Positions 21,838 through 30,550 of a stretch of DNA of 64,000 nt are shown in pieces (within the stretch, counting starts at the first letter, position 1; every line of letters begins with the position of its first letter). The stretch is from Ignavibacteriales bacterium (GTDB lineage: Bacteria > Bacteroidota > Ignavibacteria > Ignavibacteriales > Melioribacteraceae), in assembly GCA_021740915.1 (NCBI GenBank), contig JAIOYW010000005.1:1-64000 (forward strand), written 5' to 3'. The notes beneath the pieces were generated by a model that worked only from the letters and a program-made list of their open reading frames with translations, was not told the DNA's origin and did not search any database. The translations under genes and the position numbers were made by a program.

Positions 21838-22650
21838 ATGGTTTTTGAAGAGCTATTGAAAACATCTGGTTTAACCACTGGAGATCACCTGATAATTCAT
21901 TCCTCTTACCGTTTTATCAGAAGGATTTTTGAGGGAATGGCACCCGATCTATTCATTGAATTGATTCAAAAAATAGTGACGGAGGAAGGTTCTATAATTA
22001 TTCCAGTGTTCACATATAATTTCGAGTCATTTTTTGGCGAACAACCTCAGTTTGATAAATCCGCATCCGCTTCAGCAACAGGGGCTCTTGGTAATGTGAT
22101 GCTATGTATGCCCGATGTAAAAAGGACTGCCTCGCCAACACATTCCTTTGCAGTCTGGGGAAAAGCTGCCGCTGAAATCGATGATGAATATGTGCCAATA
22201 TCTCCGCTTGGTCTGGATTCGCCTCTCAGTTGGTTTTCGATGCAGCCGAATGCAAAAGTCCTGATGCTTGGATGTGATTTTAATTCCCTTTCCATCCTTC
22301 ATTTTCTCGAAAATATCACCCCTGCACCTTATAAAGATTTTTTCTGCTGGAATTTTATGGGCAAGATACCCTCTGCAACATACAAAGAGCAAAAATATAA
22401 ATTCTCTGAAGTACCTGGCTGCAGTAAATCATTTGTCAACTTTGAAACTCACTGTTTATCAGAAAAAATAATATCACCCCTCCGGATTAAGGATGAATCA
22501 TATTATTTAATTGATGCAAAAACCTTAATTTATGAAGGTAAAAAATTCATTCAAAGCAATTTTATAAGATTACTCTGCCCACCGGGAGAATGTGAAGCTT
22601 GCGATTCAAGACATTTATTTTTAGAGCAAAAAAATATATCATCTGCCTGA
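21838..22650 (+). CDS. AAC(3)-like N-acetyltransferase
   Basis: A 270-residue member of the aminoglycoside 3-N-acetyltransferase superfamily: LIIHSSYRFI at the N-terminus, GSIIIPVFTYNF, and RTASPTHSFAVWGKAA, which carries the conserved PTHS and AVWG features of the fold. Many chromosomal members act on sugars, nucleosides or antibiotics other than aminoglycosides (for instance FrbF-like or polysaccharide acetyltransferases), so a resistance role is not implied. No SD before the ATG. It overlaps the next gene by 52 bases and starts a unit with the YkuD-like and aspartase-fusion genes. Confidence 0.83.
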   Translation: MVFEELLKTSGLTTGDHLIIHSSYRFIRRIFEGMAPDLFIELIQKIVTEEGSIIIPVFTYNFESFFGEQPQFDKSASASATGALGNVMLCMPDVKRTASPTHSFAVWGKAAAEIDDEYVPISPLGLDSPLSWFSMQPNAKVLMLGCDFNSLSILHFLENITPAPYKDFFCWNFMGKIPSATYKEQKYKFSEVPGCSKSFVNFETHCLSEKIISPLRIKDESYYLIDAKTLIYEGKKFIQSNFIRLLCPPGECEACDSRHLFLEQKNISSA

Positions 22651-23919: not shown

Positions 23920-25791
23920 ATGAAAAGTAACGATACAATAATCTCATTCCTAAAAGAAATTGAATTATTTAAGGATTTAAATGAGAGCGAATTAGCTGAG
24001 ATTTCTACAAATCTTGAAGAAAAAAACTACAAAAAAGATGAAGCTATATTTACTGAAAACACACCCCGAAAGAACTTATTTCTGATCTTCGAAGGTGAGA
24101 TAGAGTTATTCAAAAAAAGTCCGTTCGGAGGAGAAAAACGACTTACTTTTTTCAGGAAATACGATTTTCTCGGTGAAGGTTCATTGATGGATGACTCACC
24201 CCATTCCACTTCCTCGAGAGCAATAATGAATACCAGAGTATTCACGCTTAGCAAGGAGAAATTTGCCGGACTCATTGAGGCTCACCCGGGTTCAGCAGGT
24301 AAAATTCTTTCCAGAACCGCCAGGGTAATAAGCCGCAGAATGCGCCAGGCTAATACCAGATTGATGAATGTTGCGTCTCAGTACCAATCCGGAAGGACAC
24401 GACTGGAGCATGATCTGCTGGGTAACAGAGAAGTGCCTTTTGAATATTATTATGGCGTCCAAACTCTAAGGGCACTTGAAAACTTTAATATAAGCGGAGT
24501 CCCTCTCAACTTTTATCCTTCACTAATTGAAGCGCTCGCAATAGTAAAAATGGCATCAGCAAAAGCGAACTACGAACTTGGATTGCTCTCACAACCGATA
24601 AATGATGCCATAGTGGAAGCTTGCCGGGAAATAATTAACGGGAGGTACCACACTCATTTTGTTGTCGATATGATTCAGGGAGGTGCAGGAACATCAACCA
24701 ACATGAATGCCAATGAGGTAATTGCAAACCGGGCTCTCGAAATACTTGGTTATGAAAAAGGTGAATATAATTATTGTCATCCGAATAATCATGTAAATCT
24801 TTCTCAGAGCACAAATGATGTCTATCCGACATCAGTTAAAATTGCTCTCATTTTTTCAAATAAAAAACTCACCCAGGTTCTGGAAGGACTGATCAGTTCC
24901 TTCAGAGCGAAAAGTCTGGAATTTTCATCAGTCCTCAAGATGGGAAGAACACAGCTGCAGGATGCGGTTCCGATGACATTAGGTCAGGAATTCGAGGCTT
25001 ATGCCGCAACACTTGAGGAGGAGATCGAAAGACTTGATCAGAATGTAAGGCTGTTCCTTGAAGTAAATATGGGAGCAACAGCAATTGGCACCGGAATAAA
25101 TGCCGAACCTGAATACTCAGGACTTTGTGTAAAGCATCTCCGGGAGATTACAGGATTGGAGATCATACTTGCAAAGAATCTCGTTGAAGCCACTCAGGAT
25201 ACAGGGGCGTTTGTAATGTATAGTTCGGCAGTCAAAAGGCTTGCGATCAAATTAAGCAAAATAAGTAATGATTTAAGGCTTCTTTCATCAGGTCCCAGAA
25301 CAGGACTTAATGAGATCAACCTTCCTCCGATGCAGCCGGGTTCCTCAATAATGCCAGGGAAAGTAAATCCTGTTATACCCGAGGTTGTAAATCAGATTGC
25401 ATTTAAAGTGATCGGGAATGATCTTGCCGTTACACTGGCTGCTGAAGGCGGTCAACTTGAATTGAATGTTTTTGAGCCGGTAATCGTGCAAAGTCTTTTT
25501 GAATCGATTGAGATGCTCAAAAATGGAATGGAAACACTGCGATTCAGATGTATTGACGGAATCACTGCGAATGAAGAGAGGTGCAGAGATTATGTTCAGA
25601 ACAGTATCGGACTTGTCACTGCATTAAACCCAGTATTAGGTTATGAGATTTGTTCAGCGCTTGCCAAGGAAGCCCTTACATCAGGCAGAGGCGTTTATGA
25701 ACTGGTACTTGAAAAAAATCTTCTTTCGAAAGAAGAACTTGATCAAATCCTCACACCTGAAAATATGATTGCACCAAGAAAGTTGAAATAA
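23920..25791 (+). CDS. aspA: Aspartate ammonia-lyase fused to an N-terminal cyclic-nucleotide-binding-type domain
   Basis: 623 residues in one uninterrupted frame. Residues 1-140 form a cNMP-binding beta-barrel: LFKDLNESELAEI, FTENTPRKNLFLIFEGEIEL, and LGEGSLMDDSPHSTSSRAI (84-102) at the phosphate-binding cassette. The Arg that contacts the cyclic phosphate in CRP-type PRAA cassettes is replaced (PHSTS), so cAMP binding is doubtful. From about 158 a complete aspartase follows: RLEHDLLGNREVP, YYGVQTLRALENFNIS, QGGAGTSTNMNANEV, SQSTNDVYPT, and the lyase signature GSSIMPGKVN (474-483). The enzyme converts aspartate to fumarate and ammonia. The N-terminal domain probably regulates it allosterically; no DNA-binding domain is present. 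Usual aspartases have about 470 residues. Confidence 0.9.
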   Translation: MKSNDTIISFLKEIELFKDLNESELAEISTNLEEKNYKKDEAIFTENTPRKNLFLIFEGEIELFKKSPFGGEKRLTFFRKYDFLGEGSLMDDSPHSTSSRAIMNTRVFTLSKEKFAGLIEAHPGSAGKILSRTARVISRRMRQANTRLMNVASQYQSGRTRLEHDLLGNREVPFEYYYGVQTLRALENFNISGVPLNFYPSLIEALAIVKMASAKANYELGLLSQPINDAIVEACREIINGRYHTHFVVDMIQGGAGTSTNMNANEVIANRALEILGYEKGEYNYCHPNNHVNLSQSTNDVYPTSVKIALIFSNKKLTQVLEGLISSFRAKSLEFSSVLKMGRTQLQDAVPMTLGQEFEAYAATLEEEIERLDQNVRLFLEVNMGATAIGTGINAEPEYSGLCVKHLREITGLEIILAKNLVEATQDTGAFVMYSSAVKRLAIKLSKISNDLRLLSSGPRTGLNEINLPPMQPGSSIMPGKVNPVIPEVVNQIAFKVIGNDLAVTLAAEGGQLELNVFEPVIVQSLFESIEMLKNGMETLRFRCIDGITANEERCRDYVQNSIGLVTALNPVLGYEICSALAKEALTSGRGVYELVLEKNLLSKEELDQILTPENMIAPRKLK

Positions 25792-25909
25792 TCAATTTAT
25801 CGGGGCAAGCCGTAATCAGGTTTGTTATTTAGAGTCGTGAATGATAATTTTAATATTCAGAATATTTTTAATAAGATAAAATCGTACTATAATATTGATT
25901 GGAGGCTTA

Positions 25910-27541
25910 ATGGCGAACGCTTATTTTTATGTCCCTGAGACGAAAAATGAAAACCCTTTATCCTACTTACCCGGGTCGCGTGAGAAAGAAAGTTTAAAAA
26001 GAAAATTAACAGAATTAAAATCGAAAACAATTGAAATCCCTTTGATTATCGGTGGCAAGGAAGTAAAAACCGGAAAAACATCTGAAATCAGAGCACCGCA
26101 TGATCATTCTGTTCTACTGGGAATTTACCACAAAGCCGGAAAAGCTGAAGTTGAGATGGCAATTGAAGCGGCGCTTAAAGCAAGGCAGCAGTGGGCTGAT
26201 CTTCCATGGGAACAGAGGGCTTCAATTTTAAGGAAAGCAGCAGAACTTCTTACCGGACCATGGCGTGATACCTTAAACGCTGCTACTATGCTCGGACAAT
26301 CCAAAACTGCACATCAGGCGGAAATTGAAGCAGCTTGTGAACTCGCTGATTTCTGGAGATTCAACCCCTTGTATCTTACAAGATTAATGTCGGATCAGCC
26401 TTATTCACCGACATCAATGTGGAATCGGGTTGAATATCGTGCACTTGAAGGTTTCGTTTTCGCAGTTACTCCGTTTAATTTTACAGCAATTGCAGGAAAT
26501 CTACCAACAGCGCCCGCACTTTGCGGTAATGTTGTTCTCTGGAAACCGGCATCAAGTGCTGTATATTCTGCCTACTTCCTGATGAAATTGCTTGAAGAAG
26601 CAGGAATGCCTGCTGGAGTTCTTAATTTTATCCCCGGTTCCGGAGGACAGGTTGGTAACCCGGTTCTGGAAAGCCCCGATCTTGCCGGAATTCATTTTAC
26701 TGGTTCAACGGCAGTATTTCAGGACATGCTTAAAAAAATTGCCGATAATGGTTATAAAGCAAAATATTATCCCAGAATTGTTGGCGAAACCGGAGGAAAG
26801 GATTTCATTTTCGCACATAATAAGGCTGATGTGGATGCACTCGTTGTTGCCGCAATAAGAGGTTCTTTTGAATATCAGGGACAGAAATGTTCAGCCGCTT
26901 CCAGAATGTATATTCCAAAATCAATTTATCCCGATTTCAAAAAGAAATATGTTGCCGAAGTTAATAAAATTAAAGTCGGTGATCCTGAAGATTTTACTAA
27001 CTTTATGTGTGCTGTGATAGATAAGGGTGCTTTCGAAAGTATTGTTGAATATATCGAATACGCAAAAAAATCTCCTGATGCTGAATTTATCACCGGTGGT
27101 AAATACGATTCTTCAAAAGGTTATTTTATTGATCCGACAACAATCGTAACAACTGATCCGATGTTTAAAACAATGCAGGAAGAAATCTTTGGCCCTGTTC
27201 TGACTATTTATGTTTATGAAGATGAGAAATTTGAAGAAACTCTTGACCTTTGCGATAAGACATCCCCTTATGCACTGACAGGTGCAATATGGAGTCAGGA
27301 CAGATTTGTTCTTAATTATATGATGAATAAACTTCAGAATGCAGCAGGCAATTTTTACATTAACGATAAGCCAACGGCTGCCATCGTAAATCAGCAGCCC
27401 TTTGGAGGCGGAAGAGCTTCCGGTACAAATGATAAAGCCGGCAGCGCCATGAATTTACTTAGATGGCTCACAGCTCGTTCAATAAAAGAGACTTTCGATC
27501 CACCGAAGGACTGGCGATATCCATTCATGGATGCCGAATAA
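25910..27541 (+). CDS. pruA: 1-pyrroline-5-carboxylate dehydrogenase
   Basis: A 543-residue aldehyde dehydrogenase beginning at ATG 25910, with GGAGG five bases upstream (an in-frame TTG at 25895 is less likely). Motifs: VTPFNFTAIAGN, FTGSTAVF, catalytic Glu in VGETGGKDF, catalytic Cys in GQKCSAASRMY, and QQPFGGGRASGTNDKAG near the end. This combination and the length match the stand-alone P5CDH group (ALDH4-like), which oxidises glutamate semialdehyde to glutamate in proline and arginine breakdown. No proline dehydrogenase gene is in the window. Its neighbour aspartase also feeds amino-acid carbon into central metabolism. A strong bidirectional terminator follows. Confidence 0.92.
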   Translation: MANAYFYVPETKNENPLSYLPGSREKESLKRKLTELKSKTIEIPLIIGGKEVKTGKTSEIRAPHDHSVLLGIYHKAGKAEVEMAIEAALKARQQWADLPWEQRASILRKAAELLTGPWRDTLNAATMLGQSKTAHQAEIEAACELADFWRFNPLYLTRLMSDQPYSPTSMWNRVEYRALEGFVFAVTPFNFTAIAGNLPTAPALCGNVVLWKPASSAVYSAYFLMKLLEEAGMPAGVLNFIPGSGGQVGNPVLESPDLAGIHFTGSTAVFQDMLKKIADNGYKAKYYPRIVGETGGKDFIFAHNKADVDALVVAAIRGSFEYQGQKCSAASRMYIPKSIYPDFKKKYVAEVNKIKVGDPEDFTNFMCAVIDKGAFESIVEYIEYAKKSPDAEFITGGKYDSSKGYFIDPTTIVTTDPMFKTMQEEIFGPVLTIYVYEDEKFEETLDLCDKTSPYALTGAIWSQDRFVLNYMMNKLQNAAGNFYINDKPTAAIVNQQPFGGGRASGTNDKAGSAMNLLRWLTARSIKETFDPPKDWRYPFMDAE

Positions 27542-27599: not shown

Positions 27600-29015
27600 T
27601 CAACGGTTTTTGAAGGCATATTGTCCATGACCCTTCGGAACTTCACCATTCCTGTCACAATCATAAACAACGCTTCCGCGAACAAGTGTTTTTAGAACAT
27701 CAAATCTAAAACTGTCTGAAAGTGGTTTGGTAATATCCGGATTGGCACCAACGAGCACAATGTCAGCATCCTTTCCGGTTCTCAGATCACCCTTGTTCAT
27801 ATTGAAATAATCAGCAGCATTTTTACTGAATACATCGACAATATTCTCAAGAGTCAGTCTGTCTTTAACAAGTCCTTCGTTCAGCAGAACCGGGAGGCGT
27901 TTGCTTGCAGACTGAACATTCTCCGTAACCAGCCAATAATTTTCAGCCTTCTCAGGAGTCACTATATCGAGATATTCCTTATGGTCTGATCCAACTACAT
28001 CAATAAGTCCTCTGGAAAGCCCTTTCCATAATGCCTCGCGGTCTTCATTATGCCTTAGAGGAGGAATACATTTAAAATGTCTTTTATCTTCAGGGGGTAA
28101 TTCTTCCTGTGTGTACATAAGATGTGTATTTGTAGTGCAGGAGAAGAGTCTGATTCTCTTATTCCTTCTCATCGACTTAAGAGCATTTACACCTAATTCT
28201 GTAGTGATTGAAGTGATAAAAAATTTAACAGCAGTCCGGCTCGATACATCAGCCATATTCCAGACTGCCTCTGATTCTGAATGCTGATCATGTGTGTACA
28301 TAAAATCTTTTTTCTCGAGATATTTTAATCTGTGAGCCCTGAATGCTCTGAATTTTGTGATCTCAAGATCCTCCGGAACCATCGCAATCGGGTAGTTAAT
28401 ACCTTTGAGAAATTTTGCGAGTTTATGATAATCATCGCGGCTGAATTCATTAATTTTCGAATCATCTTCGGTAAGGTAAAGATAAACACCGGCAGCGCCA
28501 AGATTCACGCTTGCTTCAATCTCGTCAAGAAGCTCCATTCCCTTTGATAGATCCTCAAGTTCCAGACCACGCCACAATCCAAAATCGACGAAAGAATTCT
28601 TAAGGAGAAATTCTCGCTTTTGAGTAAGCAATTCATCGTTCGTTATTCTCTGCCCGTTCCAGTATGGCATATCAACAATTGCAGTTGTTCCGCCGGCGGC
28701 AGCTTCAATTGTAAGATCGGCGAATCTATCCGGACCGGCGAGACTGAAATACACTGTCGGATCAACACCACCGGGCATAGCAAATGCAAAATTTCCGTCA
28801 ATATCATCTCCCTTGGCTCTTTTGATACCCTGCATATTATTCATTATAAATGCAGAAAGTTTTTTCTCGTCTGAAATCTCTTCCCACGCCACTTTACCTC
28901 TGAGCAATGGTGTCATTTCAATGATTTTTTCATCGAAAGTAATGTTCACTAACCGGAGATAATTAGCTCCTGTCGGAACAAAAACATTTAACAGATGTCT
29001 TTCTTTCTTATCCAT
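27600..29015 (-). CDS. Dihydropyrimidinase/dihydroorotase-family protein lacking metal ligands (probable pseudoenzyme)
   Basis: 471 residues from ATG 29015 (a GTG at 29024 is also possible). The whole TIM-barrel amidohydrolase outline is present: MPGGVDPTVYF, AAAGGTTAIVDMP, CIPPLRHNEDREALWKGL, GSDHKEYLD and ADIVLVGANP. However the HxH pair after PGGVD is TVY (T87, Y89), the carboxylated Lys position in GAAGVYLYL is Tyr, the HxE position is VPE, and the later His (usually HVS) is ITS; only the Asp of SDH (D344) remains. Known parallel: eukaryotic CRMP/DPYSL proteins are metal-free relatives of this family with structural roles. The frame is intact over its full length, so it is under selection rather than decaying. 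Function unknown. Confidence 0.8.
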   Translation of the reverse strand: MDKKERHLLNVFVPTGANYLRLVNITFDEKIIEMTPLLRGKVAWEEISDEKKLSAFIMNNMQGIKRAKGDDIDGNFAFAMPGGVDPTVYFSLAGPDRFADLTIEAAAGGTTAIVDMPYWNGQRITNDELLTQKREFLLKNSFVDFGLWRGLELEDLSKGMELLDEIEASVNLGAAGVYLYLTEDDSKINEFSRDDYHKLAKFLKGINYPIAMVPEDLEITKFRAFRAHRLKYLEKKDFMYTHDQHSESEAVWNMADVSSRTAVKFFITSITTELGVNALKSMRRNKRIRLFSCTTNTHLMYTQEELPPEDKRHFKCIPPLRHNEDREALWKGLSRGLIDVVGSDHKEYLDIVTPEKAENYWLVTENVQSASKRLPVLLNEGLVKDRLTLENIVDVFSKNAADYFNMNKGDLRTGKDADIVLVGANPDITKPLSDSFRFDVLKTLVRGSVVYDCDRNGEVPKGHGQYAFKNR

Positions 29016-29055
29016 TTTAACCACATTTATTTAATTATAAATTATTAATTTTTTC

Positions 29056-30171
29056 TTATTTAATCAAATCTTTATAAATATTCAGTGTCTGATCCGTTAT
29101 TAATGCAAGATCGAACTTCTTCTTTGCTTTTAACCTTGCATTTTTACCAAGTCTTTCTCTTAACTCAATATCCTCAACAAGAATTTTTAACTTTTCCGAG
29201 AGATCATTTACATCCTTATTACGGAACATCAGTGCATCCGATCTATCATCTGCTATATCTAATATGCCATCTGTATCCGAACAGATACATGCTTTTTCCA
29301 TCGACATAGCCTCAACAAGGGCAATTCCAAATGCTTCGGCATGAGAGGGGAAGACAAAAATATCGATTGCAGAAAGAATATTCTCTGTATCTGATCTGAA
29401 CCCGGTAAAAGTTACTTTATCTGCCAATTTTTTTGAACTTTTTATCAGATCGAGAACTTCATCTGCATAATTGCTTTCTCCATAGCTGGCTTCACCGGTG
29501 AGTAATACTTTAATCGCGGGATAATTATCAATAATTTTCAGCAATGCTTCGATAAGATCTTTATGTCCTTTACCTGGGCTGAATCTTCCGACAAGACCGA
29601 CAACAATATCAGTAGAGGAATACCCGAATTCTGCCCGGCATTTTGATCTGACGAATTTTTCAGGAGAAAATCTGTCAGTATCCACGCCGTTAAAAACAAT
29701 CTCAATTTTATCTGAGGTTAATGGGCACGTATCCAGTAAATTGTTCCTGATAACTGTGCTTATTGCTAAAGCTTTTGAGACTCTGCCATAGAGATATTGA
29801 TGTAATTTATCTTTTTTAATTATAAATGAACCGAGTTGTTTTGTTAAAACAAGGGGCTGAGGTATTCCAAAAAGGGACAATGCCGGCACAAGAAGCCACA
29901 AATCTTTTGAATATTGTGTATGTAAAAGATCAAATCCTGATTTATTTATAAAACTTCCCAAACGCAATATTTCGACAGGTCTGAAATATCTATCAGATTT
30001 TATTGAATGCACTGTCACTCCCTTTTTTAGAGCATTTCTGTGCATAGAGGAATTATGAAGACACAGTAAAACCACATCGTGACCACTTCTTATTAATTCC
30101 GTACACGAAATAACTGTGTAAATCTCCATGCCTCCCCAGCTGTGTGAGAGACATGAATAGAGTATTTTCAT
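29056..30171 (-). CDS. Glycosyltransferase family 4 protein
   Basis: A 371-residue GT-B enzyme. N-terminal acceptor domain begins MKILYSCLSHSWGGMEIYT; the donor domain has GLVGRFSPGKGHKDLIEAL (191-209) and the EX7E motif EAFGIALVE (E279 and E287), with FPSHAEAFG before it. GT4 enzymes are retaining transferases using nucleotide sugars, usually for LPS, capsule or glycolipid synthesis at the inner membrane. It stands without other polysaccharide genes, so the product is unknown. A 40-base gap separates it from the amidohydrolase-like gene downstream on the same strand. Confidence 0.9.
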   Translation of the reverse strand: MKILYSCLSHSWGGMEIYTVISCTELIRSGHDVVLLCLHNSSMHRNALKKGVTVHSIKSDRYFRPVEILRLGSFINKSGFDLLHTQYSKDLWLLVPALSLFGIPQPLVLTKQLGSFIIKKDKLHQYLYGRVSKALAISTVIRNNLLDTCPLTSDKIEIVFNGVDTDRFSPEKFVRSKCRAEFGYSSTDIVVGLVGRFSPGKGHKDLIEALLKIIDNYPAIKVLLTGEASYGESNYADEVLDLIKSSKKLADKVTFTGFRSDTENILSAIDIFVFPSHAEAFGIALVEAMSMEKACICSDTDGILDIADDRSDALMFRNKDVNDLSEKLKILVEDIELRERLGKNARLKAKKKFDLALITDQTLNIYKDLIK

Positions 30172-30241: not shown

Positions 30242-30550
30242 TTATCTCTTTACTGATTTATTTAAAATTTCTTCTATTCTGTCAACTTTTTTTTCGATCC
30301 TGCTATCATTGCCTTCTTTGTAATCGATTTTAATGTTTATTGATATCCGTTTTGAATCCTGTGACATCCTTTTGAAACATTTGGTTATGAGTGCCAGAAT
30401 TTCATCCCATTCCCCTTCAATGACTGTTCCCATTGGATTTAACTGATAAGGCAAGCCGCTTTTATCAATAATGTCAATAATTCCGGCTACCCATTCTGAG
30501 AGGTGTTCCCCTTTATCAAACGGGGACATTGTTAGTTCTGCCATTACCAT
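30242..30550 (-). CDS. MTH1187-family thiamine-binding protein
   Basis: A 102-residue protein of the MTH1187/YkoF-like fold: AELTMSPFDKGEHLSEWVAGIIDIIDKSG, PMGTVIEGEWDEILALI (written in parts; positions 4-32 and 39-55), and a C-terminal KKVDRIEEIL helix. Family members bind thiamine or its pyrimidine moiety as small homo-oligomers; their cellular role is not settled. ATG 30550 has AGGA six bases upstream. It is divergent from the thioredoxin gene (63 bases). Confidence 0.85.
   Translation of the reverse strand: MVMAELTMSPFDKGEHLSEWVAGIIDIIDKSGLPYQLNPMGTVIEGEWDEILALITKCFKRMSQDSKRISINIKIDYKEGNDSRIEKKVDRIEEILNKSVKR

Follow-up and report, generated by a model that had tools for sequence, protein, structure and literature searches.

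A HyuA-like cyclic-amidohydrolase homologue without its metal site in a bacterium of the Melioribacteraceae

Why would a bacterium keep an unbroken gene for a cyclic amidohydrolase in which nearly all metal ligands have been replaced? This question is raised by a gene on the reverse strand of a 64-kb stretch of DNA (the window) from an Ignavibacteriales bacterium. The first-pass annotation had described its product as an intact dihydropyrimidinase-like protein deprived of its metal ligands, had drawn a parallel to the animal CRMP proteins, and had seen in its maintenance in a compact genome a hint of a non-hydrolytic role or of a metal-independent reaction. Our analysis suggests, with a probability of roughly 60%, that the gene is an intact HyuA-type paralogue from which the binuclear metal centre and part of the substrate motif have disappeared, and that it would be kept for binding rather than for hydrolysis.

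The gene, its ligand positions and its predicted fold

The protein is encoded by a single unbroken open reading frame, whether this is read from the ATG or from the GTG at position 29024 (Table 1). A frame of 471 codons would arise by chance in random sequence of the same base composition with a probability of about 10^-14; since a gene in decay would not have begun as random sequence, this figure is only a rough guide. The GC content by codon position resembles that of six other window genes. Pfam detects an Amidohydro_1 domain (E 6e-13), and homology to bacterial hydantoinases and allantoinases extends along the full length of the protein. Its likeness to allantoinase AllB lies in the best match by sequence to a solved structure (3hm7; E 5e-26, phmmer); the difference lies in the absent metal site and in a score of 137.9 against the cut-off of 357.85 of the corresponding NCBIfam model (TIGR03178). 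Among the best 25 of 37 NCBIfam families no cut-off was reached, the highest score being 147.8 against a cut-off of 631, and the allantoinase, hydantoinase and dihydroorotase models all remained below theirs. Both the homology and the length of the frame thus uphold the original description of the gene as intact.

Alignments with HyuA-type proteins place T, Y, Y, V, S and D at the six ligand columns, which in the family are occupied by H, H, K, H, H and D (H89 to T, H91 to Y, K180 to Y, H215 to V and H271 to S, with D346 kept); a phmmer pairwise alignment to 3hm7, read by eye, yields identical columns. Of the metal-ligand set formed by the HxH pair, the carboxylated Lys, two further His and the Asp, Asp346 alone remains. 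The alignments consistently bear out the claimed ligand loss, five of six residues corresponding to the four of five motifs counted before, and the replacement of the HxE His stands with the correction that the residue following it has changed as well, from Ala to Pro. None of the five replacements is a His, Asp, Glu, Cys or Lys, and none of the ten His present in the protein falls onto a ligand column. The alignment with hydantoinases and allantoinases that had been proposed as a check likewise moved no other His or Lys onto the metal sites, although a new metal site may have formed from other residues. The changes extend to the ETCPHYL stretch, which aligns with CTTNTHL, and to the substrate-side motif GGIPGVEHRV, which aligns with ENVQSASKRL. 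Judged from the alignments and the structural model, the protein is very probably incapable of canonical metal-dependent ring opening.

Table 1. Features of the locus in window coordinates. Residue numbers refer to the 473-aa query (27600-29021) and equal the ATG-based numbers plus 2.
Feature	Position	Strand	Basis or remark
HyuA-like cyclic-amidohydrolase homologue without metal site	27600..29015	-	471 aa from ATG; 474 aa from GTG at 29024
HxH block, residues 87-92, DPTVYF instead of D.HVHF	28746..28763	-	alignments
Carboxylated-Lys position, residue 180, now Tyr	28482..28484	-	alignments
HxE His position, residue 215, now Val (HAED to VPED)	28377..28379	-	alignments
HxS His position, residue 271, now Ser	28209..28211	-	alignments
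SDH motif, residues 345-347, ligand Asp kept	27981..27989	-	alignments
Glycosyltransferase (PF00534, PF13439), upstream neighbour	29056..30171	-	Pfam
Thiamine-binding-type protein (PF01910), next upstream gene	30242..30550	-	Pfam
Aldehyde dehydrogenase (PF00171), convergent neighbour	25895..27541	+	Pfam
Aspartase/fumarase-type lyase with N-terminal cyclic-nucleotide-binding domain (PF00206, PF10415, PF00027)	23920..25791	+	
Antibiotic_NAT protein (PF02522; aminoglycoside 3-N-acetyltransferase family)	21838..22650	+	

Could the protein instead be an enzyme with an altered site, one that performs a metal-independent or differently liganded reaction? Such a reaction would use the kept ligand Asp346 and its neighbour His347 together with the new Tyr91, Tyr180, Cys295 and His300. 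Asp346, His347 and Glu217 are indeed retained, Cys295 and His300 are newly present in the former ETCPHYL stretch, and the amidohydrolase superfamily does include metal-free members, such as LigI. The loss of the GGIPG motif argues in the other direction, as does the second multi-loss protein described below (G023:C14:66161-67648), which carries Asp and Tyr at positions 295 and 300, so that Cys295 and His300 are not common to both proteins. We therefore consider an altered enzyme unlikely.

AlphaFold modelled the protein with a pLDDT of 90.3 and a pTM of 0.92 when given a 50-row alignment containing 49 homologues from the fetched loci; on the single sequence the pLDDT was only 35, and the confident model leans on these homologues. 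The predicted fold is an amidohydrolase barrel with a beta-sandwich. It matches the L-hydantoinase 1gkr with a Z of 42.6 and 2.6 Å across 424 residues and the CRMPs with a Z of about 38 to 40, a difference that says little about kinship. Within the bounds of prediction, this confidence and the match to 1gkr bear out the earlier statement that the fold has been kept.

Relatives, divergence and a second multi-loss protein

When the protein was used as query against 164 genomes of the order (E up to 1e-20), 49 matches in 47 genomes were returned, and ligands could be read in all 49. All six are present in 45 of them, and one incomplete match has two readable sites, both normal. In another match (L020, G029:C447:135-1346) a Lys replaces the first His of HxH while the remaining ligands are intact; this sequence has a longish branch (1.07) and is located at a contig edge. 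Among the 49, loss of several ligands is restricted to the window protein and to G023:C14:66161-67648. The latter has R, H, Y, H, N and D at the ligand columns; three of the six are lost, among them the Lys, which is changed to Tyr as in the window protein. The genome G023 belongs to the same family as the window genome and also holds a ligand-complete copy with genes for YgeX and SsnA alongside. Each of nine ligand-complete loci with wide flanks, chosen by hand, has at least one of YgeX, SsnA, YgeY and YgeW nearby. None of these four lies in the 19 kb covered around G023:C14:66161-67648, and none of the four tested neighbours of the window gene is found near it.

Beyond the order, homologues from a phylum sample (395 genomes) and a class sample (391 genomes), taken as best-scoring loci only, have intact ligands where these were read. 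Scanning the genome_contigs and viral_contigs sets with six peptide patterns of the protein detected no relative; a four-row alignment recovered at least three loci from genome_contigs, two of them ligand-complete and the third again G023:C14:66161-67648. No orthologue was present in the order, phylum, genome_contigs and viral_contigs samples searched, and the nearest homologue is 33% identical.

How selective was the loss? At 116 near-invariant positions, defined in 30 ligand-complete homologues, the window protein keeps 48 residues. The ligands are not lost in significant excess over the other near-invariant positions (1/6 versus 47/110 kept; Fisher p 0.40). Active-site blocks, which were drawn after viewing the alignment, retain 19/59 residues versus 29/57 elsewhere (p 0.059); the corresponding values for G023:C14:66161-67648 are 27/59 and 41/57 (p 0.005). 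By these counts the enzyme features are gone, yet the whole protein has drifted far, and it appears from the aligned sequences to have diverged fast in its entirety.

This degree of divergence would fit a decaying gene: a HyuA copy, duplicated or acquired, on which selection has been relaxed and which has so far remained unbroken. The very long branch of 3.21 changes per column in our tree, the small share of near-invariant residues kept and the missing orthologue fit such a history. An intact frame at such divergence speaks against decay, and so do the near-full length of the protein, from which 13 alignment columns are absent in one C-terminal loop, its ordinary codon-position GC and, with the reservation already made for its dependence on homologues, the confident predicted fold. 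We judge decay to be improbable, and retention of the gene for a binding function remains our preferred reading.

The two multi-loss proteins may have one origin or two. Our tree, from which 13 of 69 rows had been removed beforehand (nine dihydroorotases and four other homologues), unites them with a support of 97/95; within their group, however, no branch is longer than these two, and an alternative tree placing the window protein beside its own paralogue was not rejected (p-AU 0.189). In quick trees without the ligand blocks the two proteins were still joined, albeit with a long-branch flag on both and no starred support. When each was omitted in turn, the window protein moved to L010/L011/L049 and the G023 protein to the base of the clade. 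Sites changed in both proteins carry more identical replacements than expected from BLOSUM62: 8/33 versus 2.6 at 95% conservation (P 0.004), 10/45 versus 3.6 at 90% (P 0.003) and 10/54 versus 4.4 at 80% (P 0.011). Common to both are K180Y, A216P, R244H and five milder changes. This excess may reflect a shared origin or, alternatively, parallel selection.

The ligand-complete paralogue and the genomic setting

The host genome comprises 4.35 Mb in 35 contigs, and the notion of a compact genome has consequently to be given up. It contains nine Amidohydro_1 matches, eight of which were read, the window gene among them. A ligand-complete paralogue, which the first-pass annotation had recommended looking for, is encoded on contig C24 and is 25.9% identical to the window protein over 471 columns. 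It sits among genes that we call YgeX, SsnA, YgeY and YgeW; at NCBIfam YgeY alone clears the cut-off of a model so named, SsnA and YgeW stay below theirs, and YgeX matches cysteine-synthase models only. The paralogue itself passes the cut-off of the allantoinase AllB model (367.6 versus 357.85). Its designation as HyuA therefore rests on the gene set, which corresponds to the uric-acid cluster. The cluster (L039, 8024-14676 on G000:C24) has a gene order of the YgeX-HyuA-SsnA-YgeY-YgeW type. The host phylum is absent among those named for uric-acid clusters in the accessible part of PMC12507026.

HyuA, an enzyme of the D-hydantoinase type, has been shown to act in the anaerobic uric-acid cluster of E. 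coli and C. difficile, according to the accessible text of the same report (PMC12507026). The window protein resembles this HyuA in being homologous along its whole length to the copies that clusters of its own order encode, in fold and length, and in its nearest rows in the tree; it differs from it in lacking five of six ligands and the GGIPG motif and in being encoded outside the cluster. The YgeX, SsnA, YgeY and YgeW copies of the host genome found no match in the window at E 1e-10.

The neighbours of the gene are listed in Table 1. The glycosyltransferase gene lies on the same strand, 40 bases upstream of the ATG of the window gene, and the aldehyde dehydrogenase is presumably of the 1-pyrroline-5-carboxylate dehydrogenase type. 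The Antibiotic_NAT family, to which a further window protein belongs, also includes proteins of other function.

An inactive cyclic amidohydrolase could also serve as the structural partner of a carbamoyltransferase, as the inactive dihydroorotase does in the aspartate transcarbamoylase of Pseudomonas. The host possesses candidate partners: the carbamoyltransferase that we call YgeW, and an open reading frame which we take to be aspartate transcarbamoylase-like. The latter is located on a different contig from the window gene and is already adjoined by a dihydroorotase (L004, G000:C11:36159-37166), the sole protein of this type among the eight Amidohydro_1 matches read; L004 has an Asn (VHFSNIST) where the dihydroorotases of eight relatives have His. 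The window holds no YgeW homologue, the immediate neighbours include no transcarbamoylase, and by sequence the protein is closer to HyuA than to dihydroorotase: its best HyuA-type homologue scores 242.9 bits, the dihydroorotase of its own genome 44.4 bits. As far as the accessible text of PMC7053772 goes, the pseudo-dihydroorotase of class A2 aspartate transcarbamoylase is likewise an inactive bacterial cyclic-amidohydrolase homologue, which lacks the zinc ligands and is needed for transcarbamoylase activity; it is, however, derived from dihydroorotase and bound to its partner enzyme. A carbamoyltransferase partner is accordingly the least probable of the explanations considered here, and a very unlikely one.

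A putative binding role and the comparison with CRMPs

The animal CRMP/DPYSL proteins offer one of the nearest known parallels. In the accessible text of PMC4051505, CRMPs are described as devoid of dihydropyrimidinase activity, as forming homo- and heterotetramers, and as featuring an extended C-terminal tail; in CRMP-4, two of the six ligands are left and a Leu replaces the Lys. The parallel drawn in the first-pass annotation is thereby sustained: the window protein shares the cyclic-amidohydrolase fold, has lost its metal ligands, and is predicted to be otherwise intact in its fold. It differs from CRMPs in lacking the long C-terminal tail, ending about where HyuA-type proteins end, and its nearest homologues are bacterial and HyuA-type; the likeness to CRMPs would consequently be one of convergence.

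Of the original interpretation, then, ligand loss in a kept fold, the likeness to CRMPs and the ligand-complete paralogue hold, and the compact genome does not. We infer that the window protein would be retained for binding, with no canonical hydrolysis. That both multi-loss genes lie outside the cluster, and that each of the two genomes also encodes a ligand-complete copy, counts in favour of such a binding paralogue. It is quite conceivable, if somewhat short of an even chance, that the old fold binds, internally or at its surface, another protein or a ligand of the ureide or cyclic-amide type. That it would join the tetramer of its own ligand-complete HyuA, as CRMPs join one another, seems rather unlikely; because CRMPs form mixed tetramers, this is nevertheless the most testable idea, and the separate genomic place of the gene speaks mildly against a shared complex. 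More doubtful still is a wider scenario, in which a single inactive HyuA lineage in the Melioribacteraceae, marked by the shared Lys180Tyr, Ala216Pro and Arg244His, would have been retained to serve the uric-acid-type HyuA tetramer as a subunit or sensor devoid of catalysis, and would form the bacterial equivalent of CRMPs by convergence.

No bacterial HyuA-derived pseudoenzyme was found among the literature matches listed, which were judged by title in a survey with subscription journals mostly outside it. As far as this limited literature shows, a bacterial pseudoenzyme of the HyuA branch would be new, while dead cyclic amidohydrolases as such are already a known kind. Metal-free relatives of these enzymes have become working proteins before, in the animal CRMPs (PMC4051505) and in the pseudo-dihydroorotase of pyrimidine synthesis (PMC7053772), as the accessible parts of these reports indicate. 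If our reading is true, the window gene would represent a further origin of such a relative, this time within the bacterial HyuA/allantoinase branch, and a dead copy together with a ligand-complete paralogue in one cell would provide a simple system for asking what the dead copy does for the live enzyme.
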